Shown one piece after another: positions 7,137 through 38,569 of a stretch of DNA of 42,058 nucleotides. Below the pieces are notes generated by a model. That model was not told the DNA's origin and did no database searches. It saw only the letters and a program-made list of their open reading frames with translations. The position numbers and the translations under genes were made by a program. Numbering within the stretch: position 1 is the stretch's first letter; each line of letters begins with the position of its first letter. Origin of the DNA: Rhodoferax sp. (lineage in GTDB: Bacteria > Pseudomonadota > Gammaproteobacteria > Burkholderiales > Burkholderiaceae_C). Location of the stretch: positions 1-42,058 of the forward strand of contig NZ_JAGPBB010000029.1 of assembly GCF_018063565.1 (NCBI RefSeq), read 5' to 3'.

Positions 7137-7189
7137 ATTAGATATTTTTCTAATTTTTGTTCATTCTGGTTCATTCTCATTCATTTCGG
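7137..7189. repeat. Inverted repeat and three 10-bp tandem repeats beside the right att site
   Basis: ATTAGA/TCTAAT flank a 6-nt AT spacer (7137-7154). They are followed by three back-to-back 10-mers, TTCATTCTGG, TTCATTCTCA and TTCATTTCGG (7160-7189), the last running into the tRNA. The AT-rich character and position suggest recombination-protein binding sites. The remainder of the 6994-7187 gap shows nothing else I can name. Confidence 0.55.
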
Positions 7190-7262
7190 GCGGTTAGCTC
7201 AGGGGTAGAGCACAGCATTCACACTGCTGGGGTCGGAGGTTCGAAGCCTCCACCGCCCACCA
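7183..7262. repeat. 80-bp direct repeat, right (attR-like)
   Basis: Perfect copy of 264-343, containing a complete tRNA-Val(CAC). It marks the right boundary of the island; chromosomal DNA with ppiD follows. Confidence 0.93.
7188..7262 (+). tRNA. tRNA-Val (anticodon CAC), right copy
   Basis: Identical to the tRNA at 269-343, including the CCA. Both copies look structurally intact and each is followed by its own terminator, so the integration has apparently left two usable genes, provided the AT-rich sequence upstream of this copy acts as a promoter (not shown). Confidence 0.96.
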
Positions 7263-20172: not shown

Positions 20173-21165
20173 TTACTTGGCGAATGGCGTGGGACGCGGT
20201 GTCGCATCAGCCGACGGCGGCAGGATCGGCATCATGAAGCTGGGTTGATCGCCGGTCAGGGTCTTCAGGAATGCCACTACCTTGGCATTTTCGTCTTTGG
20301 TAAACACTTTGCCCAACTGCAGTTTGCCCATCACGTCGACGGCCTCAGCCAAAGTATTCACTGCACCGTCATGGAAGTACGGGTAGGTCATTTCAATGTT
20401 GCGCAGTGTTGGCACCTTGAAGTTGAAACGGTCAATTTCCTTGCCTGTTACGGCGCTACGGCCTTCGGCACCACCGGTTGACTTATACGGAGCCACGACA
20501 CCCATCTTCTGGAAAGATGCGCCACCGACCGCAGGGCCGTTGTGGCACGCAACGCAACCGCTTTCTTTGAACAGTTTGTAGCCAGCCAGTTCATCTGCGC
20601 TTAGGGCATCTTGTTTGCCCAGCAGCCATTGGTCAAAACGGGAATTGGGAGTTACCAGAGTCTTCTCAAACTCAGCAATCGCGGTGGTGACCTGATCGAT
20701 GTCGACCTTGTCGGTACCAAAAACTGTCTTGAATTCACGCACATATGCGGGAATGGAAGCCAGCACACCCACAGCCAGCGTGTGGGTAAAGCCCATTTCA
20801 CCTGGATTGGCAATGGGACCACCCGCCTGTGCTTTCAGGTCAGCTGCGCGACCGTCCCAAAACTGGGCGACGTTCAAGCTCGAGTTCAACACGGTGGGGG
20901 CATTGATCGGGCCTTGCTGCCATTTGTCACCAATCGATGTCGGAATATTGTCAGTGCCGCCCATCGAAAGGTTGTGACATGAATTGCAGGAGATAAAACC
21001 CGACTTGGACAGACGCGGATCGAAATACAGTTTTTTGCCGAGTTCGACCATACCCAGATTGATCTGTGCTGGAGGTTTGATCGGTTGAATCAGTTCTTGG
21101 GCCGCTGAGATGGACGGCACCAGACTCAGGGCGAACAGTGATGCGGCAAGAATGCGTAGTTTCAT
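20173..21165 (-). CDS. Di-haem cytochrome c peroxidase
   Basis: A 330-residue periplasmic protein that reduces H2O2 with electrons from cytochrome c. The signal peptide is MKLRILAASLFALSLVPSIS, cleaved near SAA. Two haem c sites: CNSCH (C60, C63, H64), the high-potential or peroxidatic position of the N-terminal half, and CVACH (C204, C207, H208). Other family marks are ELGKKLYFDPRLSKSG, FWDGRAADL, GEMG and KVPTLRNIEMTYPYFHDG. The ATG at 21165 has AAGGAAA upstream. The gene is divergent from oxyR, which fits a peroxide role. An imperfect FNR-like site (21203-21216) lies in the shared region. Confidence 0.93.
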   Translation of the reverse strand: MKLRILAASLFALSLVPSISAAQELIQPIKPPAQINLGMVELGKKLYFDPRLSKSGFISCNSCHNLSMGGTDNIPTSIGDKWQQGPINAPTVLNSSLNVAQFWDGRAADLKAQAGGPIANPGEMGFTHTLAVGVLASIPAYVREFKTVFGTDKVDIDQVTTAIAEFEKTLVTPNSRFDQWLLGKQDALSADELAGYKLFKESGCVACHNGPAVGGASFQKMGVVAPYKSTGGAEGRSAVTGKEIDRFNFKVPTLRNIEMTYPYFHDGAVNTLAEAVDVMGKLQLGKVFTKDENAKVVAFLKTLTGDQPSFMMPILPPSADATPRPTPFAK

Positions 21166-21306
21166 TTTTGTTTCCTTGAAGGTTGAAAGTTGTGCTTGAC
21201 ATTCGATCGGGATCAAACGAACCAAAAATTCAGCACGAGCGAAACTTTACCCAACCCAAATCATCGTTCGTATGATGTAAGTCAATGATTAATAAAGTTT
21301 TTTTGG

Positions 21307-21332
21307 CTATATACTGCATAGATAACTTCTAT
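21307..21332 (+). promoter_or_regulatory. Candidate OxyR operator upstream of oxyR
   Basis: CTAT, 7 nt, ATAG, 7 nt, CTAT match three of the four tetranucleotides of the OxyR consensus (ATAG-N7-CTAT-N7-ATAG-N7-CTAT) with exact spacing. The fourth, expected at 21296-21299, reads AGTT. The element ends 11 nt before the oxyR ATG, so it probably mediates autorepression and perhaps activation of the divergent peroxidase gene (inference). Confidence 0.62.
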
Positions 21333-21343
21333 ATACAGAACCC

Positions 21344-22249
21344 ATGAAACTGTCTGCCCTTCGTTACCTGGTCGCATTTTCCGAACATATGAGCTTTAGT
21401 CGGGCCGCCGAGCATTGCCATGTTTCACAGCCAACCCTTAGCGTCGCCATTCAGAATCTTGAAGAGGAATTGGGTGTCATCCTGATAGAGCGCAGCAAAC
21501 ACCGTTTGGGGCTGACGGCCATCGGAGAACGCGTGGTGGCACAAACACGCAAAAGCCTGGAGGAGGTTCAGCGCATTGAAACGGTGGCACAGACCGGCGT
21601 TGACCCCTTGCTTGGTACCTTTCGACTGGGTGTCATCCACACCATTGGGCCCTATTTGCTGCCGCAACTCATTGCGGCGCTGCGCCAGCAGGCACCGGCG
21701 CTGACGCTCTATATTGAAGAAAGCATGACAGCACTGTTGGCAGACAACCTCAAGTACGGAACCATTGATGCGGCCATCGTGGCCTTGCCCTTTGACGTGC
21801 CAGGCATCAACACCCACGCTCTTTACGACGAAGTGTTCGAGGTGGTGATTCCCAAAGGACACCACTGGGCCGGGCGACAGGCAATTCCCGCTGCTGAGAT
21901 TGGCGGCGAAGATGTTCTGGTGCTGAAAGCGGGAAATTGCTTCCGGGAGCAGGTGCTTGACGCCTGCCCCGAGATCAGCCACGCCGATGGATCGTTGCGT
22001 CAAGGTCATTCCATCGAAACCATTCGTGCCATGGTGGCATCCGGCTATGGTATTTCAGTGCTGCCGAAGAGTGCACTGTCAAGTCTGTACAGCACCGAAC
22101 TGGTCCAGGCGATTCCCTTCGAGACACCGGCACCCATGCGCCGGGTCGCACTGGCATGGCGACAAAACTATGCTCGACTGCCAGTCATCCAATCGTTGAT
22201 CGCTGCTATCGACGCACTGGATCATTCAATCTACCAACCCGTTGCTTGA
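21344..22249 (+). CDS. oxyR: Hydrogen peroxide-sensing LysR-type regulator OxyR
   Basis: A 301-residue LysR-type regulator. The N-terminal helix-turn-helix is MSFSRAAEHCHVSQPTLSV, with the typical linker helix to about residue 85 and an effector domain to the end. The two redox cysteines fall at exactly the E. coli positions, Cys199 and Cys208, in AGNCFREQVLDACPE. H2O2 forms a disulfide between them and switches the DNA-binding mode. VIHTIGPYLLPQLI is also OxyR-like. It is transcribed away from the cytochrome c peroxidase gene, with a good OxyR-type operator just upstream of its start. Confidence 0.95.
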   Translation: MKLSALRYLVAFSEHMSFSRAAEHCHVSQPTLSVAIQNLEEELGVILIERSKHRLGLTAIGERVVAQTRKSLEEVQRIETVAQTGVDPLLGTFRLGVIHTIGPYLLPQLIAALRQQAPALTLYIEESMTALLADNLKYGTIDAAIVALPFDVPGINTHALYDEVFEVVIPKGHHWAGRQAIPAAEIGGEDVLVLKAGNCFREQVLDACPEISHADGSLRQGHSIETIRAMVASGYGISVLPKSALSSLYSTELVQAIPFETPAPMRRVALAWRQNYARLPVIQSLIAAIDALDHSIYQPVA

Positions 22250-22493: not shown

Positions 22494-22991
22494 ATGAACA
22501 AAGCCCGAAACTTCTCAGTGCTGTTTTCAACACTTTTCCTCTTCTGGATTTTGCTCAACGGCTCGGTTGCAACCGATGTCCTGTGGGTGGGTGTTGTAGC
22601 AGCGTTTCTCATCTCGCTGCTGTTTCGCGATGGAACGGCCTTTGTCTCGGAGTTGCGCCTCAACCCGAAGGCACTGTTTACTTCGGTGATTTACGTGTTT
22701 TTCTTCGTTAAGGAACTGGTCAAGTCCAACATCAACCTGGCCAAGATCGTCCTGTCACCCGAACTGCCTCTCAAACCCGGCATTGTCAAGGTCAGAACCC
22801 GGCTCAAGAGTCGCATGGGTCGTTTGCTGCTGACGAGTTCGATCACCTTGACACCTGGCACCTTGACCGTCGACCTGGTCGGCGAGTGGATTTATGTGCA
22901 CTGGGTGACAGTGGACTCACCCGATATCGAGGGCGCCACAGCGGCCATCGTGAGTGGCTTTGAACAGTATCTGGAGGTCATGTATGGTTGA
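22494..22991 (+). CDS. mrpE: Mrp/Mbh-type antiporter module subunit E
   Basis: A 165-residue MrpE/MnhE/MbhA homologue, first gene of a 13-gene operon. Two or three N-terminal helices (LFLFWILLNGSV, LWVGVVAAFLISLLF, then VIYVFFFVKELVKSNINLAK) are followed by a soluble domain with the family block VRTRLKSRMGRLLLTSSITLTPGTL, here with SSITLTPGT as the core. In Mrp antiporters and MBH-type complexes MrpE belongs to the E-F-G cluster thought to move Na+. The ATG has GAGGAT upstream. It overlaps the next gene by 8 nt. Confidence 0.9.
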   Translation: MNKARNFSVLFSTLFLFWILLNGSVATDVLWVGVVAAFLISLLFRDGTAFVSELRLNPKALFTSVIYVFFFVKELVKSNINLAKIVLSPELPLKPGIVKVRTRLKSRMGRLLLTSSITLTPGTLTVDLVGEWIYVHWVTVDSPDIEGATAAIVSGFEQYLEVMYG

Positions 22992-23244
22992 TTCATTGGT
23001 TCAAGTCGCCGCCTTGCTGACCAGCCTGGCATTTTTTCTGGCATTGTACCGGTTTCTCAAGGGACCTTCGGTGGCAGACCGGGTGGTGGCGTTCGATGTA
23101 CTGACGATTGTTGCAGTGACGGCGATCGTGCAGATTGCTTACGCCGAAGGGCGTGGCATTTATCTCGATGTAGCGCTGGTCTACGCGCTGCTGTCATTTC
23201 TGGGGGTGATCGTGGTCGCCCGGTATCTGGAACGGGGGCTTTGA
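22984..23244 (+). CDS. mrpF: Mrp/Mbh-type antiporter module subunit F
   Basis: An 86-residue MrpF/MbhB homologue with three transmembrane helices. The conserved FLKGPSVADRVVAFDVLTI block after helix 1 is diagnostic, and the end is VVARYLERGL. The Asp in ADRVVAFD is conserved in the family. The start at 22984 (MVDSLVQ) is preferred over a position ten codons upstream because the helix begins here and it overlaps mrpE only slightly. It overlaps mrpG by one base (TGATG). Confidence 0.9.
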   Translation: MVDSLVQVAALLTSLAFFLALYRFLKGPSVADRVVAFDVLTIVAVTAIVQIAYAEGRGIYLDVALVYALLSFLGVIVVARYLERGL

Positions 23245-23582
23245 TGGAGAACTTACTGGCTATGGCGGGGGGCTTCCTGATGGTCGCCGGTGCTTCTTTT
23301 CTTTTGCTGGGAGGCCTTGGACTGGTGCGTATGCCTGACGTTTTCAATCGAATTCAGGCGGGCACCAAAGCCACAACGCTTGGAACACTCCTGAGCCTGG
23401 GTGGTGCAGCATGCATTCAACCAGACTGGGCACTCAAGTTGTTCTTGATAGGCTTGTTCATCTTGTTCACGAACCCGATTTCGTCGCAGGTGCTGGCGCG
23501 TTCAGCGCACCGCATCAGAGCACAAAAAACACCCATGACATCCGTTGACCGTTTGGCGGAAGACACCGGGGAGACAACATGA
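23244..23582 (+). CDS. mrpG: Mrp/Mbh-type antiporter module subunit G
   Basis: A 112-residue MrpG/MbhC homologue with three helices. LGGLGLVRMPDVFNRIQAGTK is the family signature after helix 1, and LFILFTNPISSQVLARSAHR follows helix 3. A polar C-terminal tail (about 88-112) faces the cytoplasm. Overlaps of 1 nt upstream and 4 nt downstream (ATGA) indicate tight translational coupling within the operon. Confidence 0.9.
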   Translation: MENLLAMAGGFLMVAGASFLLLGGLGLVRMPDVFNRIQAGTKATTLGTLLSLGGAACIQPDWALKLFLIGLFILFTNPISSQVLARSAHRIRAQKTPMTSVDRLAEDTGETT

Positions 23583-23848
23583 GCAGCATGATTTTCTTGA
23601 TGACCATCGTCTTGTGCGCGGTCATGGTGGGTGGCGCCTATGTGGCAGTCAGTGGGCGCAGTCTGCCCATTGCCATATTGGCGGCCGGTCTGGTGAGCCT
23701 GGTCGCATCGGTGCTGTTCCTGATTCTGGCGTCACCCGATGTGGCGATGACGGAGGCCGCCATTGGCAGTGGATTGACAACATTTTTGTTCTTTTTCGTC
23801 TTGGGGCGCGTGCGCGGTGGCGAAAACGACGGAGACAAGCATGATTAA
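23579..23848 (+). CDS. MbhD-type subunit (DUF4040)
   Basis: An 89-residue membrane protein with three helices and the DUF4040/MbhD signature LILASPDVAMTEAAIGSGL. In canonical Mrp antiporters this segment is part of the C-terminal extension of MrpA; in MBH and MBX/MBS complexes it is a separate small subunit. Its separate occurrence here groups the operon with the latter. It overlaps the gene after it by 8 nt. Confidence 0.87.
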   Translation: MSSMIFLMTIVLCAVMVGGAYVAVSGRSLPIAILAAGLVSLVASVLFLILASPDVAMTEAAIGSGLTTFLFFFVLGRVRGGENDGDKHD

Positions 23849-24539
23849 GCGTTTCATCGCCTTTGCCATGATGGCAGGCCTGGGGGTCATTTTCATGGCA
23901 CTGCTGGCCGGATACGAGCCCGACGCCGCACTCAACCTCACCGCACTCTATTACGCCGAGAACACTGCGCGTGAAATCGGTGCAGCCAACATCGTGACCG
24001 CCATTGTGGTGACCTATCGGGGTCTTGACACCCTGGGCGAAGTCACGGTGCTGTTTTTGGCCTCCACCATCGTCGGGCTAGTTTTGTCGATGGGCAGAAA
24101 AACCCAAGCGGGTCACTCCAAGCTGGTGCCAGTGGGCGAGTTGCTGACCACGGGTAGCCGCTTTTTGGCGCCGCTGGTGATGCTGCTGGGCGTTTACATC
24201 TTCGTCAACGGTCACCTGACACCCGGTGGCGGCTTCCAGGGAGGCGCGGTGATTGCCTCCGGCGCGTTGCTGCTTCTTTTGGCAGATCCGCTCAAGCACC
24301 TCAGTCACACCTTGATCTCAGTGGTCGAGTCATTTGCCGGCGCGGCCTATGTGCTGATTGGCGTACTCGGGCTGATATTGGCCGGTGGGTTTCTCGATAA
24401 CCGGTTTCTGCCGCTGGGTGACTTGGGTGTCCTGTTCTCTGCAGGTGCGATCCCCCTGATTTACTCGCTGATTGGCCTCAAGGTTGGCGCCGAGTTTGCA
24501 TCGATTCTGGCCAATCTGTCCCAAACGGAGGAACTGTGA
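23841..24539 (+). CDS. MbhE-MrpB fusion membrane subunit
   Basis: A 232-residue protein with two parts. Residues 1-90 resemble MbhE (NIVTAIVVTYRGLDTLGEVT), the second element of the MrpA C-terminal extension. Residues about 95-232 are an MrpB/MnhB/MbhF domain (PVGELLTTGSRFLAPLVML, then NGHLTPGGGFQGGAVIASG). In MBH these are two genes. Six to seven hydrophobic helices. The ATG at 23841 follows GGAGA. The stop overlaps the mrpC-type start (TGATG). Confidence 0.88.
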   Translation: MIKRFIAFAMMAGLGVIFMALLAGYEPDAALNLTALYYAENTAREIGAANIVTAIVVTYRGLDTLGEVTVLFLASTIVGLVLSMGRKTQAGHSKLVPVGELLTTGSRFLAPLVMLLGVYIFVNGHLTPGGGFQGGAVIASGALLLLLADPLKHLSHTLISVVESFAGAAYVLIGVLGLILAGGFLDNRFLPLGDLGVLFSAGAIPLIYSLIGLKVGAEFASILANLSQTEEL

Positions 24540-24895
24540 TGTCACATATCGCAATGGCGACCGGCTTTCTGCTGATTTTGATCGGCTTTTATGGGGCACT
24601 GACCCAGCGCAACCTGATGCGAATGATTGTTGCGTTTACCGTGGCCGACTCAGGTGTCAATCTGGTCATCGTCAGCATCGGCTATATGCGTGGCCGCACC
24701 GCGCCTATCCTGGACTCAACACTCAGTGCCGTTGACGCGGCAGCACGAATCATCGACCCGGTTCCACAAGCCCTGGTACTGACAGCGATCGTGATTGGTG
24801 TTGGCGTGACCGCGCTGATGTTGGCCTATGTCTACAGGCTGTACGAGAAGAACCGCACGCTCGACATCGCGCACTACACGGAGTTGAAATGGTAA
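24539..24895 (+). CDS. mrpC: MrpC/NuoK-like membrane subunit
   Basis: A 118-residue MrpC/MnhC/MbhG homologue, related to NuoK of complex I, with three helices. Seen: GFYGALTQRNLMRMIVAFTV, NLVIVSIGYMRG, and DPVPQALVLTAIVIGVGVTA, the strongest family block. It links the MrpB-type subunit to the MrpD-type pumps in known complexes. GGAGG lies 7 nt before the ATG at 24539, so I prefer it to the GTG one codon upstream. The last codons overlap the next start by 7 nt. Confidence 0.92.
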   Translation: MSHIAMATGFLLILIGFYGALTQRNLMRMIVAFTVADSGVNLVIVSIGYMRGRTAPILDSTLSAVDAAARIIDPVPQALVLTAIVIGVGVTALMLAYVYRLYEKNRTLDIAHYTELKW

Positions 24896-27800
24896 GCGCC
24901 ATCTACATCATTGTGGCCGCACTGGCGGCGTCGTTCCTGCTGGGTCTGCTCAAAGAAAGCAACCGCGGGCTGGCTTTTTTGATCACACTGGCCACGCTAG
25001 GTTTTATGACCTGGGTTTCTGGAAGCTGGCTTGGGTTGTTTTTGTCGCAAGACGCCGCCTCGGTCGAAATCTTTACCGCTGGCACCAAGCCACCCTTTGC
25101 CATCAATCTGCGCATGGGCCTGCCTGAAGCGGCACTGACCTTGCTGGTCAATGCCACCGGCTTTCTGGCTGCGCTGCACCTCAAAGACGCGCTCTATCGC
25201 CTGGGCAACCGGTCGATGGCGGTGCTGATGGTGACCATCATGGCCTTGTGCGGCGTGATTCTCACGCGTGACATCTTTAACCTGTTTGTATTCTTTGAGC
25301 TGCTTGTCATCTCAACTGCCGGACTGGTGTTGCTATCGGAGGATGGTCGCGCCTTGGCAGCAGGTTTCAAGTACTTGATCGTTTCTCAGGTGATCTCGGT
25401 GTTACTGTTGATCGGCATCATCTTTGCTTACCATGCAACGGGTACGCTCAATATTGATGGCATGGCTCAGGCATCGCTCATTGAGCAGATGGGCGGCGCG
25501 ATGGCTTTCTTTTTCATGTTCATTGCCATCCTGGCCGAAGTCAAACCCTTTCCAGCCAATGGCTGGGCACTTGACATCTACGAGTCGGCGCACCCCTCGT
25601 ATTCGGCTGTTTTCTCGGCCGCATCAGGGACCGCGGCGCTGTTTGCGGTGGACAAACTCCTGCTCATTGGCGGCCCCACCTGGTACCCAATGGCCACCAC
25701 GGTGGGCATCATCACCTTTGCGGCGGCCAATTTGTTTGCCCTCCCCCAAACCAATGACCGCAGGCTCCTGGGTTACTCGTCCATTGCACAGACTGGACTG
25801 GTCCTGGCGGTGCTGGGGCAACGCGATGTGTTGGGTGATCTGACCAACTATGTGGCATTTGGCTTGTTGCTCTCGCACGCCGTTGCCAAAGCCGGGCTTT
25901 ACTGGCTATCGGGTTTGGTTCAGGGGCGTTTGCTCACGGACTGGACAGCGCTGCGCGAGCGTCCGCTGCTGATCTTTGCGTTTATTACGTTTGTTTGCAT
26001 GCTCAGTGGCTTGCCGCCTTTCCCAGGCTTTTACGCGAAATGGGAACTGGTGCGGGTGCTTGCCGCGGAAGGCAGATTGCCGCTCCTGGCAATGATTTTG
26101 GTCGGTGCCCTGATTGAGGCAGGCTACCTGTTTCGCTGGTTTGGCTACATCATCAAACGCGACCCAGTGGCGCAGACGGTAAGTTGCGTCAGCCACAAGG
26201 CACTGCCGCTGTTTGTGGCGGTGATTGCCGGTTGGCTACTGGGTTATGTGTGGGGCGATCTATCCGGGCGCACCAACTTGCTGCTGACCATTCCACTGGC
26301 GTTTGCGCTGGCGTTCCTGGTGCTTGACTGGTTGCCTGCCTGGGCTAAAAACACCCTGGCCATCGCTGGCATGGTGGCATTTTTCTACCAAACCTATACC
26401 GAGTATGACCCGCTGCGTCTGATCTTTGCCGTGATCTTTTTGATTGGCGGCGCCGTGACTTTACTGGCCAGTTACGCCTCCCACGGCCGGCGCATCGGGT
26501 TTTACCCCGCTGCCATGCTGATGTACGCCGGCTTGGTGATGCTGATCCGTGCTACCGACACCTTTGACTTTTTCAGCGCATGGGAAATTTTGACCGTGGG
26601 CTCGTATTTCCTGATTCTGCGCGGCAAGCACTCCGAACCCCACGCCCTTTCCTACATCGCCTTTTCTTTGGGTGGTGCATTCCTCATCCTGACAGGTTTT
26701 GCTCTGGGCGCACAGGGCGCTGTTCAATTTGATGTTGCCGGCTTGAGCCAACTGGTTGCACCGTTGGCGCCTTGGGTATTTGCCCTGTTGGCGCTGGGGT
26801 TCATGACCAAGACCGCAGCCATTGGCCTGCATGTCTGGCTGCCGGGCGCCCATGCCGAAGCCGAAACCGATGTCTCACCCATGGTCTCAGGCATTTTGCT
26901 CAAAGCCGGGTTGTATGGCCTGATCATGCTGCTGATGACGATGGGCAAGCAACAACTCTTTGGCGTCGAACTCACCCATGTACTGATGTGGATTGCGGCC
27001 TTGACCGCCTTGCTGGGCAACCTGATGGCGATCTTTCAGGAAGACGCCAAGCGGCTGCTGGCCTACTCCTCGATCGGCCAAATGGGCTACGCCATGTTTG
27101 GTCTTGCCTTGATGAACCACCTGGGCTGGCTGATGGCGCTGATGTTCGTGATCAACCACTACATTTACAAGGCGATGCTGTTCCTGGCCGTGGGTGGCGT
27201 GGCCAAACGCACTGGCACCAAGGACATGTACCGCATGGGCGGCCTGATTACCCTCATGCCACTCTCGTTCATCGCGGTGCTGGTCGGCATCATTGCCGTC
27301 TCGGGCTTGCCACCGCTGTCGGGCTTTGGTGGGCGCTGGATTTTCTACAACGCCATCATCTCTGCGGAGTACCGGCTGCCCATGATCCTGATCTTCCTGG
27401 CCGGTCCGATTGCCTTTTTGTACCTGTTCCGTTTAATCTACGCGATTTTCCTGGGCCAACTCAAGGACGAGTTCCGCCGTGTCAAAGAGGCGCCGTTCTG
27501 GATCATCCTGCCGCAAATGATTTATGTCGTGCTACTGGTGGTCTTCGCGATCTTTCCCGGCATCGCCTTGCGTAGGGTGGATGCCTACCTGAACCAATTT
27601 TTCCCCGAGGGTGGATTGGGATGGACCACCGGCAACACCATTACCAGCAGTTACGGGTATTGGAATCCGATTGCCATCATGATCAGTGTGGTCGTGATCT
27701 TTGCAACGCTGTTTGCCTGGCTGCTTTTCGTTGATCGCAAGGCGCAGAAAGTCAAACAATTCAACATCGTGTTTTCAGCGGAGCGTCCGTTCCGCCCGGA

Positions 27801-28017
27801 AACCACCCATTTCGCCTGGAACTTCTTCGCGCCTTATCGTAAAGCGCTGGGATTCTTGGTGACACCTCTGGCCAGCCGCTTCTGGGATGGGCTGACCAAC
27901 TTGCTCCATGCAGTGGCTGATTTTGCCCGGCGCCTCTACAACGGCAACGGACAGAGTTATGCATTTCACTTCCTGGCCTTTGTTCTACTCGCCTTTCTTC
28001 TCCGGATGGGAGCCTAG
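24889..28017 (+). CDS. Double MrpD/NuoLM-type proton pump fusion (H-H')
   Basis: A 1042-residue membrane protein made of two antiporter-like subunits. Residues 1 to about 485 resemble MrpD: Glu137 in FNLFVFFELLVIS and Lys219 in AILAEVKPFPANGW sit at the MrpD proton-path positions, with VAKAGLYW following. Residues about 490-1042 are a second NuoL/M-type unit: Glu566 in FFSAWEILTVGSY, Lys641 in FMTKTAAIGLHVWLPGAH and Lys672 in ILLKAGLYG, plus a C-terminal amphipathic stretch and final helix (about 935-1042). Family members are normally about 480-620 residues. MBX/MBS complexes have two such subunits, H and H', as adjacent genes; here no stop separates them. Each half should translocate protons or sodium. 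Confidence 0.92.
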   Translation: MVSAIYIIVAALAASFLLGLLKESNRGLAFLITLATLGFMTWVSGSWLGLFLSQDAASVEIFTAGTKPPFAINLRMGLPEAALTLLVNATGFLAALHLKDALYRLGNRSMAVLMVTIMALCGVILTRDIFNLFVFFELLVISTAGLVLLSEDGRALAAGFKYLIVSQVISVLLLIGIIFAYHATGTLNIDGMAQASLIEQMGGAMAFFFMFIAILAEVKPFPANGWALDIYESAHPSYSAVFSAASGTAALFAVDKLLLIGGPTWYPMATTVGIITFAAANLFALPQTNDRRLLGYSSIAQTGLVLAVLGQRDVLGDLTNYVAFGLLLSHAVAKAGLYWLSGLVQGRLLTDWTALRERPLLIFAFITFVCMLSGLPPFPGFYAKWELVRVLAAEGRLPLLAMILVGALIEAGYLFRWFGYIIKRDPVAQTVSCVSHKALPLFVAVIAGWLLGYVWGDLSGRTNLLLTIPLAFALAFLVLDWLPAWAKNTLAIAGMVAFFYQTYTEYDPLRLIFAVIFLIGGAVTLLASYASHGRRIGFYPAAMLMYAGLVMLIRATDTFDFFSAWEILTVGSYFLILRGKHSEPHALSYIAFSLGGAFLILTGFALGAQGAVQFDVAGLSQLVAPLAPWVFALLALGFMTKTAAIGLHVWLPGAHAEAETDVSPMVSGILLKAGLYGLIMLLMTMGKQQLFGVELTHVLMWIAALTALLGNLMAIFQEDAKRLLAYSSIGQMGYAMFGLALMNHLGWLMALMFVINHYIYKAMLFLAVGGVAKRTGTKDMYRMGGLITLMPLSFIAVLVGIIAVSGLPPLSGFGGRWIFYNAIISAEYRLPMILIFLAGPIAFLYLFRLIYAIFLGQLKDEFRRVKEAPFWIILPQMIYVVLLVVFAIFPGIALRRVDAYLNQFFPEGGLGWTTGNTITSSYGYWNPIAIMISVVVIFATLFAWLLFVDRKAQKVKQFNIVFSAERPFRPETTHFAWNFFAPYRKALGFLVTPLASRFWDGLTNLLHAVADFARRLYNGNGQSYAFHFLAFVLLAFLLRMGA

Positions 28018-28019
28018 TC

Positions 28020-28928
28020 ATGTCCTTCGACTGGATGAAAATCCCCTACGCCTTTTTGACGCTGTTCATCGTTGTCAATTTCGGCTTTCTGATGAACGCG
28101 TTCATCGCCAAAATTGCCGCCCGGGTTGGCCGTCGCCACGGTATTCCCATCTGGCAGTACTACGCTGACATGGTCAAAAACTATGGCCTGCGCTCGTCCA
28201 TTACCCATGGCGTGATGTTTTACCTTGGCCCGGTGTTTCGTTTGTCAGGCGGCGTTGGTTTGCTGCTGTTCATGCCGGCGATTTATGGCTCGACCATGTT
28301 CTCCAACCTGTCGTTTGCTGGCGACCTGATTCTGGCTTTGTACTTCATCTTCTTCGGCACCTTGGGCATGGCACTAGGCGCAGGAGAAAGCGGTCATCCG
28401 CACGCGGCCATCGGGATCACGCGCGGCTTGTCGCAAGTCACCACCGCTGAGCTGCCGTTTGCGCTGGCCGTTTTTTCTGTGTCGCTCCAGTACCAGACAC
28501 TCAATGTCACCGAAATCGTTGCTGCCCAACAGGGCGGCATGCTGAACTGGACGCTGTTTACCAATCCGCTGGCGGTCGCTGCGGCAATGCTGTCGTTCTT
28601 GGGCTCCATGATGCGCCCGCCGTTTGACATCGTGATTGCCCCGCAAGAAATTCCAATTGGTCCGCCCACCGAATACCACTCGTCGTATCTTGCGCTAATG
28701 CAGACCAATCGCGCCATCTTTCCTGTGGCCAAGATCGTGATCTACATGAATCTCTTTTTTGGTGGCGCCTCCGACTGGCCAACCTTCTTCTTCAAAGTGT
28801 TTCTGATCTATTTGTGGTCGGCCTTTGTAGGCGTCGTATTCCCGCGTTTTCGTGTCGAGCAGTCGATTCGCTGGTTCCTGGTCTGGGCTGTGCCGCTGGG
28901 CATCCTCTCTATCGTATGGGTGAACTGA
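28020..28928 (+). CDS. NuoH/HycD/MbhM-like membrane subunit
   Basis: A 302-residue membrane subunit with about eight helices, the anchor of the peripheral arm in complex I and group 4 hydrogenases. Seen: RRHGIPIWQYYADMVKNYG, the counterpart of the complex I loop with the conserved Gly-Pro-Leu-Gln-Asp motif but more hydrogenase-like, and the acidic loop FDIVIAPQEIPIGPPTEYHS, which matches FDLxEAExELVxGxxxEY of NuoH. Two of the loop's usual glutamates are replaced (Ile/Ala-Pro), while Glu remains in QEIP and TEY. The gene follows the fused pump by 2 nt. Confidence 0.9.
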   Translation: MSFDWMKIPYAFLTLFIVVNFGFLMNAFIAKIAARVGRRHGIPIWQYYADMVKNYGLRSSITHGVMFYLGPVFRLSGGVGLLLFMPAIYGSTMFSNLSFAGDLILALYFIFFGTLGMALGAGESGHPHAAIGITRGLSQVTTAELPFALAVFSVSLQYQTLNVTEIVAAQQGGMLNWTLFTNPLAVAAAMLSFLGSMMRPPFDIVIAPQEIPIGPPTEYHSSYLALMQTNRAIFPVAKIVIYMNLFFGGASDWPTFFFKVFLIYLWSAFVGVVFPRFRVEQSIRWFLVWAVPLGILSIVWVN

Positions 28929-28929
28929 C

Positions 28930-29571
28930 ATGAAAGAAGAACTAAAAATCCGCGTGGTCAAGGGTCCCGATGGCACCCAGTTTGAGGTCGACCCGCTACG
29001 CGACTACTTTTGCGAGGCCGCACCCAGTGTGCATCCGCCTGCTTACCTGAAGATTGTCGAGGACCTGTTCAATTGGGCACGGGCCGAGTCGATCTGGATT
29101 CTGGGTTTTGGCACCGGTTGCGGCGCCATCGAGATGCGCCCGCTGATGACACCGCGCTTTGATGCGTATCGATTTGGCGTTCAATGGCGCCCCACGCCAC
29201 GCCAGGCCAATCTGTTCATCATCTCGGGTTACCTATCGGTCAAGACGCTCAAACGCGTCGTGCGCGCCTACGAGCAGATGCAAAACCCGAAATACGTGAT
29301 TGGTTTGGGTTCCTGCACCATCAACGGTGGCATGTATTGGGACTCCTACAACACCATCAAGCGCCTGGATGACTATCTGCCGGTTGATCTTTACATCGCA
29401 GGCTGCATGCCCAGGCCAGAAGCGCTCATCGCTGGCTTCATGGACTTAAAAAAACTCATTCGTGCCGGCAAGGCCGAAGGTGCCAACCAGTACGCCGAAA
29501 ATTTCGCCTGGTACAAGGCTAACCAAAAGCATGTCATCCACGACTGGGACATGCCTGACTACAACTGGTAA
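28930..29571 (+). CDS. NuoB/MbhJ-like iron-sulfur subunit with three cluster cysteines
   Basis: A 213-residue homologue of NuoB, carrier of the proximal (N2-type) [4Fe-4S] cluster. The usual ligands are a tandem CC (complex I) or CxxC (hydrogenases) plus two more Cys. Here the first motif is GFGTGCGAIEMR with one Cys (C64), and the others are GLGSCTINGG (C129) and IAGCMPRPE (C159). The fourth ligand is absent; C28, in DYFCEAAPS, lies outside the family motif. Three-Cys, site-differentiated coordination is the feature proposed for catalysis in the archaeal MBS complex. The rest (FDAYRFGVQWRPTPRQANL) is normal. The start lies 1 nt after the nuoH-like stop. Confidence 0.9.
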   Translation: MKEELKIRVVKGPDGTQFEVDPLRDYFCEAAPSVHPPAYLKIVEDLFNWARAESIWILGFGTGCGAIEMRPLMTPRFDAYRFGVQWRPTPRQANLFIISGYLSVKTLKRVVRAYEQMQNPKYVIGLGSCTINGGMYWDSYNTIKRLDDYLPVDLYIAGCMPRPEALIAGFMDLKKLIRAGKAEGANQYAENFAWYKANQKHVIHDWDMPDYNW

Positions 29572-29580
29572 GGATCCAAA

Positions 29581-30111
29581 ATGCGAGAACTCCATACCAG
29601 CCTCAAAGCGCTCTTCCCCATGGGCGAACTGACCGAGCAACGCCCCAATCTGGCGTTTGTTACCGTTCCCAAAGAGTACCTGCGGCCCATCGCCACTCAT
29701 CTGCGCGACCTAGAAGGCTATACGCATCTGGTGCTGTTGACAGCAGTCGACTGGCTGGAAGACGAGGTGTTTCAACTCACCTACCTGTTGCACAACCGCC
29801 AGAAGGCGCGTGATATTGGCCTTCGCGTGAAATTGCCGCGACTGTCCGCCTCGATGGAAAGCATTCACGAACTTTGGCCCACGGCAGCCACCTACCAGCG
29901 CGAGCTGCGCGAAATGTTCGGCATCGACTTCCCAGGCAGTCCGCGTCTGGAAGAAGAATTCATCCTTGAAGGGTGGAACGACATACCGCCCTATCGGCGC
30001 GACTTTGACACCAAGAAGTACGCCGCGGAGAGCTACAGGCAGCGACCGGGCCGCGAAACCCACGACCCGGCGAAACATATGAAGCAGCAACTATATCCAG
30101 GCGGGCTTTGA
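29581..30111 (+). CDS. NuoC/MbhK-like 30-kDa subunit
   Basis: A 176-residue homologue of the complex I 30-kDa subunit. The signature covers LWPTAATYQRELREMFGIDF and ILEGWNDIPPYRRDF; the normal GHP after GIDF is replaced by PGSPRLEEE. It has no cofactor and scaffolds the NuoB/NuoD pair. A short C-terminal tail (KHMKQQLYPGGL) is not part of the family domain. AAGGA precedes the ATG. It remains a separate gene, not fused to the NuoD-like subunit as in many gammaproteobacteria and Hyc/Hyf. Confidence 0.9.
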   Translation: MRELHTSLKALFPMGELTEQRPNLAFVTVPKEYLRPIATHLRDLEGYTHLVLLTAVDWLEDEVFQLTYLLHNRQKARDIGLRVKLPRLSASMESIHELWPTAATYQRELREMFGIDFPGSPRLEEEFILEGWNDIPPYRRDFDTKKYAAESYRQRPGRETHDPAKHMKQQLYPGGL

Positions 30112-30112
30112 A

Positions 30113-31291
30113 ATGAGTATTTTCACCCCTGACCGCTCGCAGTACCCCAGCGCCCGGGCTGACGGCACGCTCGACATCGATCTCACCTCGGGCAAGTACC
30201 TCAAACTTTGGCAAGGCCCCAACCACCCTGGCATCACCGGCAACATGTCGGTGGAACTCACCGTTTGCGGTGATGAGGTCGTCGAGGGTAAGACCCATGT
30301 CGGCTACCTGCACCGCGGGTTCGAAAAATTGATGGAGCGGCGCACTTTCATCCAGTGCTTTCCAATCGTCTGCCGTATTTGCGTGCCCGAACCAGACTTT
30401 AATGAATACTGCTACGCCGCCGCCGTGGAAGAGCTCGCGGGCATTGAGTCACCCGAGCGCGCCAACTGGATTCGTGCCCTGATCCTGGAGATGGGGCGCA
30501 TCAACAGCTACCTGATGTACCTCGGCGGGCAGGCTGGAGCGTTGGGCCTGGGTGTCATTGGCCAGTGGACCACCTATGCCCGCGACCTCATGCTTGACCG
30601 CTTTGAAGAGCTGACTGGTGCGCGGATTTACCACATGTTCATCATCCCAGGTGGCGTGCGAGACGTGCTTCCGGATGGTTTTGACCAGCGCATGGAAGAC
30701 ACGCTGCGGGAGATCGAAAAAGTCATGCGCGATGTCTGGGACGTGATGTTCTGCAACGCCGTGTTCAAAAAACGCACCGTGGGTATGGGCGTGATTGACC
30801 CGAGTTGGCTCGACACCTATGGCGTCACCGGCCCGAACGCCCGCGCAGCGGGTGTCGCCAAAGATGTTCGCAAAGATGACCCGTACCTGGTGTATTCGCA
30901 GATCGATTTTGAGCCTGTGATCGGCCACAACTCCGACATCTACACCCGCTCAGACGTGCGCCGGCGTGACCTGCTGATGTCGGTTGACATCGTGCGTCAA
31001 TTGCTGGCCAAGATGCCACGCACCGGCCCCGTGACCGTGCCCACACCCAACGTACTGCACTGGAAGATTGCGCGCGGCGAAACCTATGTGCGCGGCGAAT
31101 GTTCACGCGGCGAATACGGTTATTACCTGGTCACCGATGGCAGTGGCTACCCGAGGCGTGTCAATGTGCGCGGCCCGTCATACACCCATGCCATGAGCTT
31201 GCTCGAGCGCATGATTGTGAACGTCAACATTTCCGATGTCGCCTCACTGATGGTGTCGCTGCATACCTATCCGCCAGAGATTGAGAGATAA
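30113..31291 (+). CDS. NuoD/MbhL-like large subunit lacking NiFe-site cysteines
   Basis: A 392-residue homologue of NuoD (49 kDa) and of the large subunit of group 4 [NiFe]-hydrogenases. HVGYLHRGFEKLMERRTFIQ and GELGYYLV-type sequence (SRGEYGYYLVTDGSGYPRRV) are family blocks. Where hydrogenases have RICGxC the protein reads CRICVPEPDF (C87, C90): the first NiFe Cys position is Cys90 but the second is Glu. The C-terminal DPCxxC is gone (SLHTYPPEIER). Complex I quinone residues are also absent: the His of HPSTHG is Thr42 in HPGITG, and the Tyr of the PRMDY block is Val91. It is therefore neither a normal hydrogenase nor a quinone reductase subunit. Confidence 0.9.
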   Translation: MSIFTPDRSQYPSARADGTLDIDLTSGKYLKLWQGPNHPGITGNMSVELTVCGDEVVEGKTHVGYLHRGFEKLMERRTFIQCFPIVCRICVPEPDFNEYCYAAAVEELAGIESPERANWIRALILEMGRINSYLMYLGGQAGALGLGVIGQWTTYARDLMLDRFEELTGARIYHMFIIPGGVRDVLPDGFDQRMEDTLREIEKVMRDVWDVMFCNAVFKKRTVGMGVIDPSWLDTYGVTGPNARAAGVAKDVRKDDPYLVYSQIDFEPVIGHNSDIYTRSDVRRRDLLMSVDIVRQLLAKMPRTGPVTVPTPNVLHWKIARGETYVRGECSRGEYGYYLVTDGSGYPRRVNVRGPSYTHAMSLLERMIVNVNISDVASLMVSLHTYPPEIER

Positions 31292-31293
31292 CC

Positions 31294-33096
31294 ATGACAG
31301 TTCGTGACGTCCTCTCGCCCTTCACCGCGTGGAAAAATGTTTTCCTCGATCCGGTGACGATCCGCGATCCGCTCAATGACCGTCCCGGCGCACCACGCTA
31401 CCGTGGCTTTCACCAGAACGACATCGTCAAATGCATAGGCTGCGGCACCTGCGAGACCATCTGCCAGAACGGCGCCATCGACATGATTCCAGTCGACGGT
31501 GTCCAAACCAAGCAAGGTGACTCCGGCCTGCGCCCACGCATCGACTACGGCCGCTGCTGCTGGTGCGCGCTGTGTGTGGATGTGTGCATGACCGGCTCAC
31601 TCACCATGTCCAACGCCTACACCTGGGTCGACGGCAATCCTGATGCATATCTGTACACGCCTGGCATCGACAAAAAGCATTGGGATAACGCCGAGCTGGG
31701 TTACCACCGCCCACAAGACCATCAGTTGACCAGTCGTGTGCGCGAACACATGCACGAGCTTGAGCCCGATGTACGCATCTGCTCATTTGCCGAAATCGTC
31801 GACGGTTACTCGGTCGAGCAGGCCAAGGCCGAGGCTGACCGCTGTGTCTCGTGTGGCCTGTGTATTGCCACCTGCCCCACCCACATGTCGATCCCCGACT
31901 ACATTGCCGCGGTGCGGGATGGCAACTACGAACGCGGCGTGGAACTGTTGTATGAGACCAATCCGTTCTCTGGTGTGTGTGGTCGGGTGTGCACGCACAA
32001 GTGCGAAACCACCTGCGCTGCGCGCCATGAAGGCGACCCGATCGCCATTCGCTGGCTCAAACGCCACATCATGGACCAGGTGCCATTTGAGCGGCGCAAA
32101 GAGCTGATCGTCGGCAGCTTGCCTGCTTCGAGCGGCAAAAAGGTGGCGGTGGTCGGTGCCGGCCCGGCCGGTTTGACCGCCGCATTTGACCTGGCCAAAC
32201 AAGGCCACAGTGTGACTGTGTACGAGGCGCTCGACAAGCCGGGTGGCATGACGCGCTGGGGTATCCCGGAATACCGGCTTCCTTACGACATCATCGATGA
32301 AGATGTGGACCTGATTCGTGCGGTGGGTGTGGACTTGCGTTGCAATACCGCGATTGGCAAGGACATCAGCCTGACCGAGCTGCGCGACGCCCATGACGCT
32401 GTGCTGCTGGGCCTGGGCCTGCAACTGGGCCGCGGTACCCGCATTCCCGGCAGCGATCACGCCGATGTGCGCAAAGCGGTCGACCTGCTGCGCCAGGCCA
32501 CCGCAGGTGAAGACTTTGGCACCCCGCGCCAGGCGGTGGTGATTGGTGGCGGCAACGTGGCCATGGACATTGCACGCACACTGGCACGGCTACAAAAAGC
32601 CAGCTTCGGCGAAGTCAAGGTGATATTGACGGCACTCGAAGACAAGGCACATTTTCTGGCGGACCCCGAGGAGATCAAGGAAGCCGGCGAAGAAGGTGTC
32701 GTGATCATCGACGCACGTGGACCACAACACGTGGTGATCGAAGACGGCAAGGTTGCCGGGTTGAAGACCTGGCGCGTCAAGGCCATTTTTGATGAGCAGG
32801 GGCGCTTTGCACCCAGCTACGACCAGACTGACGAGCAGTTTCACCCGGGCAGCATGGTGGTCGAGGCGATTGGTCAAATGACCGATACCGCTTTGCTGGG
32901 CGATGCCTTGACTGAACAGTTGGCCTGGCAACGCGGCCGCCTGCAGGTGGATGCTGGCGGCAGAACCAGCGAGCCGTGGTTATGGTCGGCTGGCGACATG
33001 GTACGTGGCCCCGACGTCGTGACCGCAGTTGCCGATGGGCATCGGGTAGCGGCCAGTATTCACGCCATGATCACAGCAGATGGAGGAGCAAAATGA
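31294..33096 (+). CDS. NuoI-like ferredoxin fused to GltD/NfnB-type NAD(P)H oxidoreductase
   Basis: A 600-residue fusion. Residues 1-110 are NuoI/MbhN-like with two [4Fe-4S] sites (C47, C50, C53, C57 and C88, C91, C94, C98). Residues about 165-265 are an Fer4_20-type N-terminal domain of glutamate synthase small subunit relatives (C184, C187, C190, C194 and C229, C233, C237, C241). The flavoprotein follows: FAD site VAVVGAGPAGLTAAFDLA (288 onward), NAD(P) site AVVIGGGNVAMDIARTL (near 418) and the final SAGDMVRGPDVVTAVADG. Together these give a wire of four clusters from NAD(P)H to the NuoB-like subunit. In MBH/MBS the N subunit is a small ferredoxin only. The stop overlaps the next gene's start (ATGA). 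Confidence 0.92.
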   Translation: MTVRDVLSPFTAWKNVFLDPVTIRDPLNDRPGAPRYRGFHQNDIVKCIGCGTCETICQNGAIDMIPVDGVQTKQGDSGLRPRIDYGRCCWCALCVDVCMTGSLTMSNAYTWVDGNPDAYLYTPGIDKKHWDNAELGYHRPQDHQLTSRVREHMHELEPDVRICSFAEIVDGYSVEQAKAEADRCVSCGLCIATCPTHMSIPDYIAAVRDGNYERGVELLYETNPFSGVCGRVCTHKCETTCAARHEGDPIAIRWLKRHIMDQVPFERRKELIVGSLPASSGKKVAVVGAGPAGLTAAFDLAKQGHSVTVYEALDKPGGMTRWGIPEYRLPYDIIDEDVDLIRAVGVDLRCNTAIGKDISLTELRDAHDAVLLGLGLQLGRGTRIPGSDHADVRKAVDLLRQATAGEDFGTPRQAVVIGGGNVAMDIARTLARLQKASFGEVKVILTALEDKAHFLADPEEIKEAGEEGVVIIDARGPQHVVIEDGKVAGLKTWRVKAIFDEQGRFAPSYDQTDEQFHPGSMVVEAIGQMTDTALLGDALTEQLAWQRGRLQVDAGGRTSEPWLWSAGDMVRGPDVVTAVADGHRVAASIHAMITADGGAK

Positions 33097-33596
33097 GCGC
33101 AGGTGCACGCAGAATCGACGTCCTTCGTGGGACAACCAGCCTCCAGGAGGTGCTCGACGTGGCCAACAGTTTTGAAGCCAGCGCACGCGATTTCTACACC
33201 GGTCTGATTCCCAAAGTCAGCAAACGCATCCGCTACCTGGTGGAAGAACTGGCCGAAGAAGAGCAAAAACACTTTGACCTGCTGGCCGAGTTGTCCAAAC
33301 GCAGCGACCTGGTGGAACAGGTCAAGATCAGAATCGAAAAAACTGCCAGTGACAGCAAGTTTTCCGATTGCTTGCATTTGCCCAACCTGGGTGACCACCC
33401 CGATGACCAAGCGGTGTTGCAGTACGCCATGGGGCGTGAACACACGGCCATGAGCCACTATCGGGAACTGTCGCTGTCAGCACCCGAAGGCCCGATTCGT
33501 GACCTGTTCACGTTTCTAGCCGGTGAGGAAACCTCGCACAAGCTGGAACTCGAAAAACTCTACTACGAGACCGTCCATCGCGGCGGGGGCGTTTAG
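33093..33596 (+). CDS. Ferritin-like diiron protein (rubrerythrin-type domain)
   Basis: A 167-residue four-helix protein with two ExxH motifs in the order expected for a diiron carboxylate site: Glu28 (FEASARDFY), E57-H60 (EEEQKH), Glu116 (GREHTAM) and E146-H149 (EETSH). It lacks the rubredoxin-like CxxC domain of true rubrerythrins, so electrons would have to come from a partner. Related proteins reduce H2O2 or handle iron. Its start overlaps the end of the NuoI-GltD gene (ATGA) and it has GGAGGA upstream, so it belongs to the operon and may protect the complex or act with its NAD(P)H module (inference). A stem without a T run at 33626-33645 is the only possible terminator. Confidence 0.87.
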   Translation: MSAGARRIDVLRGTTSLQEVLDVANSFEASARDFYTGLIPKVSKRIRYLVEELAEEEQKHFDLLAELSKRSDLVEQVKIRIEKTASDSKFSDCLHLPNLGDHPDDQAVLQYAMGREHTAMSHYRELSLSAPEGPIRDLFTFLAGEETSHKLELEKLYYETVHRGGGV

Positions 33597-36514: not shown

Positions 36515-37435
36515 CTATAGCAAAACCAGGTGATCCCGCGCGATGGCCGCAGCCAAGCGTGCGTTGTTCAACACCAGCTGAATGTTGGCGGCCAGGCTGT
36601 CGCCACCGGTCAATTCACACACCCGCGCCAGCAAAAACGGGGTGGACTCCTTGCCAGTGATGTGTTGCTGTTGTGCCTCTTGCAGGGCTTGTTCCACTGC
36701 CGCATCAATGGCTGCGCGCGGCATGGCAAAGGCCTCGGGGATCGGGTTGGCCACCACCAGCCCACCGCTCAGGTTCATGGCCCACTTGGCGTGCATCACC
36801 TGGGCAATGGCCTGGGCGCTGTCGAGCTGGTAGTCCACTCTGTACTGGCTGTCGCGGGTATAGAACGCCGGTAACCACGGGGTCTGGTACCCAATCACCG
36901 GCACGCCATGGGTTTCCAGGTATTCCAGCGTCAAGCCCAGGTCAAGGATGGACTTGGCACCAGCGCACACCACCGCCACCGGGGTCTGCGCCAGTTCCTG
37001 CAAGTCAGCCGACACGTCAAAGCTCTGCTGCGCCCCCCGGTGTACGCCACCAATGCCGCCGGTGGCAAACACGCGAATGCCGGCCATGGCGGCAATCACC
37101 ATGGTCGCTGCGACCGTGGTGGCACCGGTCGCACTGGCGGCCACGATGAACGGGATGTCGCGACGGCTGACCTTGACCACTCTGCGCCCACTCTGGCCCA
37201 GGACTTCAATCTCTGCCACCGTCAGACCGGCCTTGAGCCGTCCGTTGATGATGGCAATGGTGGCCGGCACTGCACCATGGGCACGTACTTCGGCTTCAAC
37301 CTGCAGAGCCGTGGCCACGTTCTGCGGATACGGCATGCCGTGCGAAATGATGGTGGACTCCAGCGCCACCACCGGGCGGCGCTCGGTGATGGCTTGTGCC
37401 ACATCGGGATGGATATCCAGGTAGGAATGGGTCAT
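36515..37435 (-). CDS. psuG: Pseudouridine-5'-phosphate glycosidase
   Basis: A 306-residue PsuG, which reversibly cleaves the C-glycosidic bond of pseudouridine 5'-phosphate to uracil and ribose 5-phosphate. Catalytic residues are visible: Glu26 in VALESTIISHGMPYP and Lys161 in CAGAKSILDLGLTLEYLE, each five positions before their E. coli counterparts (E31, K166). FATGGIGGVHRGA binds the phosphate, and NPIPEA is conserved. The ATG overlaps the psuK stop by 4 nt (ATGA), so kinase and glycosidase are translated together and act in sequence. Confidence 0.95.
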   Translation of the reverse strand: MTHSYLDIHPDVAQAITERRPVVALESTIISHGMPYPQNVATALQVEAEVRAHGAVPATIAIINGRLKAGLTVAEIEVLGQSGRRVVKVSRRDIPFIVAASATGATTVAATMVIAAMAGIRVFATGGIGGVHRGAQQSFDVSADLQELAQTPVAVVCAGAKSILDLGLTLEYLETHGVPVIGYQTPWLPAFYTRDSQYRVDYQLDSAQAIAQVMHAKWAMNLSGGLVVANPIPEAFAMPRAAIDAAVEQALQEAQQQHITGKESTPFLLARVCELTGGDSLAANIQLVLNNARLAAAIARDHLVLL

Positions 37436-38538: not shown

Positions 38539-38569
38539 AAACAAAAGTTTATCATACAAACTTTTGTTT
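38539..38569. promoter_or_regulatory. Perfect 12-bp inverted repeat, candidate operator of psuKG
   Basis: AAACAAAAGTTT and AAACTTTTGTTT are perfect inverted arms around the 7-nt spacer ATCATAC, abutting the psuK start codon. The AT-rich palindrome contrasts with its surroundings and is placed to block ribosome or polymerase access. The likely ligand is the HTH domain of PsuK itself (inference). The remaining 38570-38784 shows nothing else I can name. Confidence 0.72.

Follow-up and report, generated by a model that had tools for sequence, protein, structure and literature searches.

The window analyzed here, the whole 42,058-nucleotide stretch of contig NZ_JAGPBB010000029.1 from Rhodoferax sp. 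(assembly GCF_018063565.1), contains a real operon of 13 genes at 22494-33596. The genes lie on one strand (+) with gaps of −8 to +9 bases, and every frame is intact and begins with ATG; the coordinates agree with the initial annotation, which had proposed 13 overlapping or abutting genes. We named the subunits after those of the membrane-bound sulfane sulfur reductase (MBS) of Pyrococcus furiosus (structure 6u8y; PMC7684303), and their coordinates are given in Table 1. Pfam identified MrpE, MrpF, MrpG, MbhD, MbhE plus MrpB and MrpC/NuoK-like proteins, two Proton_antipo_M stretches in one 1042-amino-acid (aa) open reading frame (ORF), and NuoH, NuoB, NuoC, NuoD and rubrerythrin/ferritin-like proteins. 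These families are the ones first listed for the operon, but the protein listed as a NuoI homologue is NuoI-like only in residues ~1-120, and its flavoprotein module had been missed. A contig scan at E 1e-3 gave at least 564 candidate relatives, a number that possibly includes other NuoD-type proteins; the best 80 of them, together with 16 from another search and minus two repeats, made up the 94 distinct loci compared below. Whether the gene order is kept elsewhere had been suggested as a check, and 56 of the 58 fetched loci with a complete set share it. One of these 56 (L038) has an extra GltD homologue elsewhere in the locus, and in the two exceptions (L029 and L117) MbhD precedes MrpG. Scans of the window for promoters (4 found versus 4.6 in shuffles) and terminators (17 versus 14.0) gave about as many hits as shuffled sequence.

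Table 1. Genes of the MBS-like operon in the window
Feature	Position	Strand	Evidence
MbsA / MrpE-like, 165 aa	22494..22991	+	PF01899 1.7e-36
MbsB / MrpF-like, 86 aa	22984..23244	+	PF04066 2.1e-17
MbsC / MrpG-like, 112 aa	23244..23582	+	PF03334 3.5e-24
MbsD / MbhD-like, 89 aa	23579..23848	+	PF13244 2.1e-15; top PDB chain 6u8y_D, 51 bits
MbsE-like, MbhE domain + MrpB domain, 232 aa	23841..24539	+	PF20501, PF04039
MbsG / MrpC / NuoK-like, 118 aa	24539..24895	+	PF00420 3.2e-23
MbsH-MbsH' fusion, two antiporter-like proton-pump subunits, 1042 aa	24889..28017	+	6u8y_H, 6u8y_X alignments
MbsM / NuoH-like membrane anchor, 302 aa	28020..28928	+	top PDB chain 6u8y_M, 131 bits
MbsJ / NuoB-like, predicted proximal [4Fe-4S] cluster, 213 aa	28930..29571	+	C64, C129, C159; G61
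MbsK / NuoC-like, 176 aa	29581..30111	+	PF00329 7.9e-27
MbsL / NuoD-like, 392 aa	30113..31291	+	T42, V91 at complex I quinone-ligand places
MbsN (NuoI-like) fused to NfnL/GltD-like FAD/NAD(P)H module, 600 aa	31294..33096	+	Pfam, AlphaFold2, Foldseek, NCBIfam
Ferritin-like (rubrerythrin superfamily) protein, 167 aa	33093..33596	+	PF02915 4.4e-11

The 600-aa protein joins two parts. Residues ~1-120 resemble MbsN/NuoI (6u8y_N, 81 bits), and residues ~160-600 resemble NfnL, dihydropyrimidine dehydrogenase (DPD) and the glutamate synthase small subunit (up to 239 bits), with Cys motifs at 47-98 in the MbsN part and at 184-194 and 229-241 in the GltD part. An AlphaFold2 model of the fusion had a mean predicted local distance difference test score (pLDDT) of 92.3, and a Foldseek search with this model returned NfnL (5jca_L) first, with a TM-score of 0.88 by target length and 32% identity. 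The module thus has the fold, the two Cys motifs and the FAD and dinucleotide domains of NfnL, the glutamate synthase small subunit and DPD domain I-II (5jca, 6s6s and 1h7x), but, unlike them, it is fused to MbsN and carries a TALE-type motif where they have YRR. Of the 89 distinct loci showing both the N and the GltD part, 88 encode them in a single frame (the exception is L115), and five further loci stop before one of the two parts. The NCBIfam model NF010590 (PRK13984, "putative oxidoreductase") matches the fusion over its full length with 854 bits, under the cut-off of 946, so this architecture is already present in an annotation library without a named function. The last subunit of the Thermotoga maritima MBX may also carry a GltD-like part.

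The dinucleotide domain contains the YRR/FRR motif typical of NADPH enzymes in 30 of the 93 fusion proteins (some truncated) and a TALE/TSLE-type motif with an acidic residue in 56, the window protein included; six have no readable motif, and that of L045 resembles the TALE/TSLE type by eye. The Arg pair binds the phosphate of NADPH. Because it is replaced by the acidic motif in the lineage of the window, the fusion is predicted to prefer NADH over NADPH. The NAD(P)H link inferred in the initial annotation thus gains support from a module that was not described there. Although the module is of the NfnL type, a complete Nfn transhydrogenase was not recognized: the NADPH-binding Arg pair is absent, and a search limited to the operon, not extended to the rest of the genome, found no NfnS-like gene among the 13 genes.

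Comparison with solved structures placed the operon proteins closest to MBS. L matched 6u8y_L with 313 bits and the best complex I chain with 211; the corresponding values were 223 and 138 bits for J, 131 (6u8y_M) and 48 (runner-up) for M, and 51 (MBS) and 40 (the membrane-bound hydrogenase, MBH) for D. In the fused pump, residues 4-258 align to 6u8y_H with 83.7 bits, compared with 31.4 for 6cfw_H of MBH, and residues 472-1041 align to 6u8y_X (MbsH') over nearly the whole length with 204 bits. MBS chains rank first for L, J, M, D and H', in agreement with the likeness to MBS/MBX rather than to MBH, Mrp or complex I that had been claimed at the outset. A tree of the NuoD-type protein had been named as the test that could overturn this kinship. 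The kinship withstood this test: in a tree built by maximum likelihood from 95 L proteins and 8 references (103 rows, with one archaeal MBS row and without T. maritima and further archaeal MBX sequences), the window L and MbsL share a clade of 96 rows (100/98), and complex I (100/92) and the group-4 hydrogenases (100/100) stand apart. The named rows near the window include Rhodocyclaceae, a "Betaproteobacteria bacterium" and Chromatiaceae. The genome of the window also encodes an ordinary complex I NuoD (L119).

In composition, the operon shares A-D, E, G, H, H', M, J, K, L and N with the P. furiosus MBS (PMC7684303). In both, three Cys bind the proximal cluster, the quinone ligands are missing and the NiFe ligand set is incomplete. 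It differs from that enzyme in the fusion of H to H' and of MbsN to the NfnL/GltD module, in its ferritin-like partner, and in having Tyr for MbsL C385, Gly for MbsJ C25 and Thr for MbsH K250. With complex I (Nuo), the operon has in common NuoB, C, D, H and I homologues, antiporter subunits and a probable link to NADH; unlike complex I, it contains no NuoE, F or G, lacks the quinone ligands, has an Mrp-type distal module and occupies a separate branch. We rejected complex I and a plain Mrp antiporter in view of the ligands, the tree position and the peripheral arm.

The residues around the proximal cluster narrow the chemistry further. MbsJ binds this cluster through C28, C93 and C123 (PMC7684303), and the window J has C64, C129 and C159 at these three places and G61 at the place of the unused C25. 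In an alignment of 87 J proteins, the window included, Cys occupies the three ligand places in 83, 84 and 84 proteins; at each place the remaining rows hold gaps or one other letter. The C25 place holds Gly in 73 and Cys in 9. The window J has a single Cys in its TGC motif and no adjacent Cys-Cys pair. A gammaproteobacterial J protein (L029, 11416-11976) has TGCC, a complex I-like pair that the other 86 lack. In the window L, T42 and V91 stand at the places of His38 and Tyr87 of Thermus thermophilus Nqo4, and all 95 L proteins have Val at the Tyr87 place and Thr or Glu at the His38 place.

The four-Cys NiFe site of group-4 NiFe hydrogenases such as MBH is, as the initial annotation had noted of the catalytic cysteines, absent from the window L. 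MbsL retains two of the four cysteines, C85 and C385, and both are dispensable for activity (PMC7684303); the window keeps one of these two, with C90 at the C85 place and Y386 at the C385 place. Together with the tree, this led us to reject an active hydrogenase. Among the 95 L proteins, the C85 place holds Cys in 75, Ala in 18 and Ser in 2, and the C385 place Tyr in 56, Cys in 37 and a gap in 2. The residues called dispensable (PMC7684303) thus vary across the family, whereas the three cluster ligands hardly do. A three-Cys cluster combined with missing quinone ligands argues for sulfane sulfur as the acceptor, and these two features, with the genome association described below, narrow an acceptor that had at first been left undefined.

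H and H' are encoded in one frame in 62 of the 71 loci showing both halves and separately in 9, which form a gammaproteobacterial clade. In MbsH, E138 and K250 are residues of the charged axis of the pump, and they are not a criterion of membership (PMC7684303). E138 (E137 in the window) is kept in all 61 fused proteins longer than 900 aa, the window included. We also noted that E217/K219 of the fused proteins read K/E in the unfused ones.

At the genome level, the complex is associated with genes of sulfur oxidation. In a class sample of 274 genomes, 13 had an L match at 1e-75 (the window's own included, each from a different family) and were compared with the 261 others. soxB was present in 13/13 carriers versus 101/261 (Fisher p 7e-6), dsrA at E 1e-60 in 13/13 versus 79/261 (p 4e-7), and both genes in 13/13 versus 69/261 (p 8e-8). 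With dsrA counted over the family cut-off, the numbers were 12/13 and 75/261 (p 6e-6), the match in G323 being a fragment. The control gene narG did not differ (3/13 versus 41/261, p 0.45). A truncated Sox pathway together with Dsr goes with zero-valent sulfur, and the combination of soxB and dsrA without soxC was found in 12/13 carriers and 63/261 others. A role in nitrogen fixation was rejected, as nifH over cut-off occurred in only 1 of the 5 carriers in the window's genus.

On balance, the operon appears to encode a bacterial enzyme of the MBS/MBX branch that has its own pyridine-nucleotide arm and acts as a reversible, ion-translocating NADH:sulfane-sulfur oxidoreductase, a reading that we hold with moderate confidence. 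In such an enzyme, NADH would reduce the FAD of the NfnL/GltD module, and the electrons would reach the proximal [4Fe-4S] cluster of J by way of the module's two Fe-S sites and the two clusters of MbsN. This cluster, with three Cys ligands only, would offer an open iron at which polysulfide or persulfide could be cleaved, in the chamber between J, L and M, as has been proposed for sulfur reduction at a bare iron-sulfur cluster in the MBS of a hyperthermophilic archaeon (PMC7684303). The redox change at the J cluster would then power both the H-H' pumps and a cation module of the Mrp type. The forward reaction would likely allow sulfur-oxidizing hosts to respire their stored zero-valent sulfur under anoxic conditions, with organic reserves as the source of NADH. 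The redox values, ~−320 mV versus ~−260 mV, span so small a range that the complex should run backwards too; it would then spend the membrane gradient and reduce NAD+ with electrons at the level of sulfide. Stored sulfur has been described as an electron sink in sulfur bacteria (PMC6374484; PMC4914600), and a polysulfide or thiosulfate reductase of the psr/phs type has been proposed for one symbiont (PMC8269255).

Several points weigh against this reading. Electron transfer from NADH to polysulfide yields little energy, and strong pumping in that direction is doubtful. MbsH K250 (T248 in the window) is lost in 61/61 fused proteins longer than 900 aa and kept in 9/9 unfused ones, so the two forms may not move the same number of ions, and one pump of the fused H-H' proteins may work differently. 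In the tree, the MbsL row was flagged as a long branch, so its join to the clade is possibly false, and the position of MbsL within the clade has weak support (86/39). In NCBIfam, L and J score above the cut-offs of the models for NADH-quinone oxidoreductase subunits D (384 against 360) and B (208 against 116), respectively; these names do not, however, separate MBS from complex I, because 6u8y_L itself was deposited as "NADH dehydrogenase subunit D." In the association test, the unit is the genome rather than the independent gain, and phylogeny is ignored: 9 of the 13 carriers come from one unfused clade, and p is 0.005 when only the 4 fused-clade carriers are counted. soxC alone does not differ (1/13 versus 39/261, p 0.70), and its absence adds nothing within the 82 genomes with soxB and dsrA (12/13 versus 63/69). 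The sulfur-gene counts cover the class sample and the window's genus. Within the genus, the association is weak: soxB in 4/5 carriers versus 14/31 others (p 0.34), dsrA, with fragments counted, in 3/5 versus 8/31 (p 0.15), and either gene in 5/5 versus 15/31 (p 0.05). Two genomes of the genus that are 100% and 99% complete (G023 and G004) carry the complex and have no dsrA over cut-off, which weakens a strict link to reverse Dsr.

The same architecture could be read with other partners. MBS (PMC7684303) takes electrons from ferredoxin to reduce polysulfide or dimethyl trisulfide, NfnL, which the fused module resembles, handles both ferredoxin and NADPH, and the P. furiosus Mbx has been stated to work as a ferredoxin:NADP+ oxidoreductase (PMC6349859). 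It is therefore conceivable, although we consider it unlikely, that ferredoxin docks at MbsN and the flavoprotein reduces NAD(P)+ while ions are pumped, as in an Rnf-like ferredoxin:NAD(P)+ oxidoreductase. Flow from MbsN to the flavin would, however, by-pass the J cluster and chamber, the presumed place of coupling in the superfamily, and the kept ligands of the open cluster would have no explanation. A supply of ferredoxin by pyruvate:ferredoxin oxidoreductase was also tried as an explanation and rejected: no TIGR02176 match over cut-off was found in 36 same-genus genomes, other ferredoxin reducers not having been searched for.

Slightly less probable still is the same enzyme working in the reverse direction only, with sulfide or persulfide oxidized at the J cluster and the gradient spent to reduce NAD+ for CO2 fixation. 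The sulfur-oxidation genes of all 13 class-sample carriers fit this scheme, as does the gammaproteobacterial symbiont of Riftia, whose putative Mrp-Mbx complex shares co-expression neighbors with the reductive tricarboxylic acid cycle, its direction being unknown (PMC11636981). On the other hand, the complex I NuoD in the genome of the window could serve reverse flow, and Bacteroidota, Cloacimonadota and Spirochaetota carriers exist among the best 80 relatives. We take these carriers to be probably anaerobes that need an electron sink, which counts against a reverse-only enzyme. An NADH:quinone (menaquinone or ubiquinone) oxidoreductase that arose as a convergent complex I seems the most improbable of the three: it shares its overall plan with complex I, could be a second entry point beside L119 and would fit the NCBIfam names of L and J, but both quinone head-group residues are absent from 95/95 L proteins, the NuoB Cys-Cys pair is absent from the window J (with L029 the only one of the 87 to have TGCC), and L lies outside complex I in the tree.

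A putative Mrp-Mbx complex is in print for the Riftia symbiont, where it is grouped with complexes whose function or direction is given as unknown (PMC11636981). Like the window operon it combines Mrp and Mbx genes; the description available, by which alone the two were compared, says nothing about an NAD(P)H module fused to a subunit, about cluster ligands or about a ferritin-like gene. The MBX of T. maritima is a bacterial 13-subunit homologue of MBS, likewise compared by description only, and its mbxA is upregulated with sulfur (PMC9431562). A Hyf-like cluster from a betaproteobacterial member of a consortium has been compared with Mbx but consists of six Hyf-type genes (PMC4053972). In the open-licence literature covered, most subscription papers being outside its scope, no description of an NAD(P)H fusion with MBS-type ligands was found. 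Two more NuoD/HycE-like proteins, far from both MBS and complex I, are encoded in the genome of the window (G000 contig C61; L002, L005, L121 and L122); they are possibly the Hyf-like cluster reported for Comamonadaceae (PMC4053972).

A bolder proposal, which we put forward only tentatively, is that the NADH:sulfane-sulfur oxidoreductase is a second, independently assembled NADH-driven respiratory complex, in which an NfnL-type flavoprotein takes the place of NuoEFG and supplies electrons to an MBS-type arm. The open cluster of this arm would reduce stored zero-valent sulfur, for energy-conserving sulfur respiration in one direction and gradient-driven NADH formation in the other. If so, it would provide a named candidate enzyme for the anoxic release of sulfide by sulfur-storing bacteria. 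If the main reading is right, the complex would be a single clonable candidate for the dumping of electrons by such bacteria on their own sulfur once other acceptors run out. It would also extend the scheme proposed for archaeal sulfur reduction at a bare cluster (PMC7684303) to mesophilic bacteria, with NADH replacing ferredoxin, and show that a complex I-like pump driven by NADH arose by a convergent route. A family now annotated as NADH-quinone oxidoreductase subunits and "putative oxidoreductase" would thereby gain a testable meaning.

The best 80 relatives come from Alpha-, Beta- and Gammaproteobacteria, Magnetococcales, Spirochaetes, Bacteroidetes, Chlorobi, Cloacimonadota, Neomarinimicrobiota, Calditrichia, Aminicenantes and Acidobacteria, and a locus of Sedimenticola sp. 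(L041) belongs to the family, as do those of the cultured Thiothrix caldifontis DSM 21228 and Tropicimonas isoalkanivorans DSM 19548 (L049 and L058). Closer to the window, an L match at E ≤1e-60 was found in 5 of 60 same-genus and same-order genomes, namely the window's own and 4 of 35 others of the genus. No match to L at 1e-60 was found in a plasmid collection, and none to six peptide patterns of the MbsN-GltD fusion in viral contigs.

The ferritin-like protein encoded last in the operon probably protects the oxygen-labile cluster. Homologues were found by tblastn in 36 of the 94 loci, and the E..ExxH..E..ExxH diiron motif is invariant in 28/28 aligned rows; an AlphaFold2 model (mean pLDDT 80.3) had TM1526 (1vjx) as its best fold match. 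The gene next to the fusion was inspected in the window and in the 54 of 94 loci with a next listed ORF within 400 bases, a procedure that skipped some ferritin-like genes seen by tblastn. A Rubrerythrin domain (Pfam) was found in 26 of these 55 genes, the window included, and elsewhere another gene or the contig end follows; dihydroorotate dehydrogenase-like proteins accounted for 10/55 and CBS proteins for 6/55. A dihydroorotate-dehydrogenase-like gene of ~327 aa follows the fusion in 12 loci of Bacteroidota and Chlorobiota (L062, L069, L073, L076, L078, L080, L082, L083, L087, L092, L095 and L115). A gene resembling Crp/FNR by eye lies divergently upstream in 14 loci, mostly of Bacteroidota.

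Other features of the window lie outside the operon. Just upstream (20173-22249 region) lie a gene for a diheme cytochrome c peroxidase/MauG-like protein and one for a LysR regulator that resembles OxyR, with 231 bits where the OxyR cut-off is 329; the same pair is found upstream in L024 and was not found in L023. At 36515-38559, unrelated to the operon, a pseudouridine kinase-like gene (37432-38559, −) overlaps a 340-aa gene that had no NCBIfam match at 1e-10. At the start of the window, two identical tRNA-Val(cac) genes (75/75 bases, 269-343 and 7188-7262) flank a tyrosine integrase-like gene (5752-6993, −) and HsdM-like and RadC-like genes, and the stretch between them resembles an island that has integrated at a tRNA gene.

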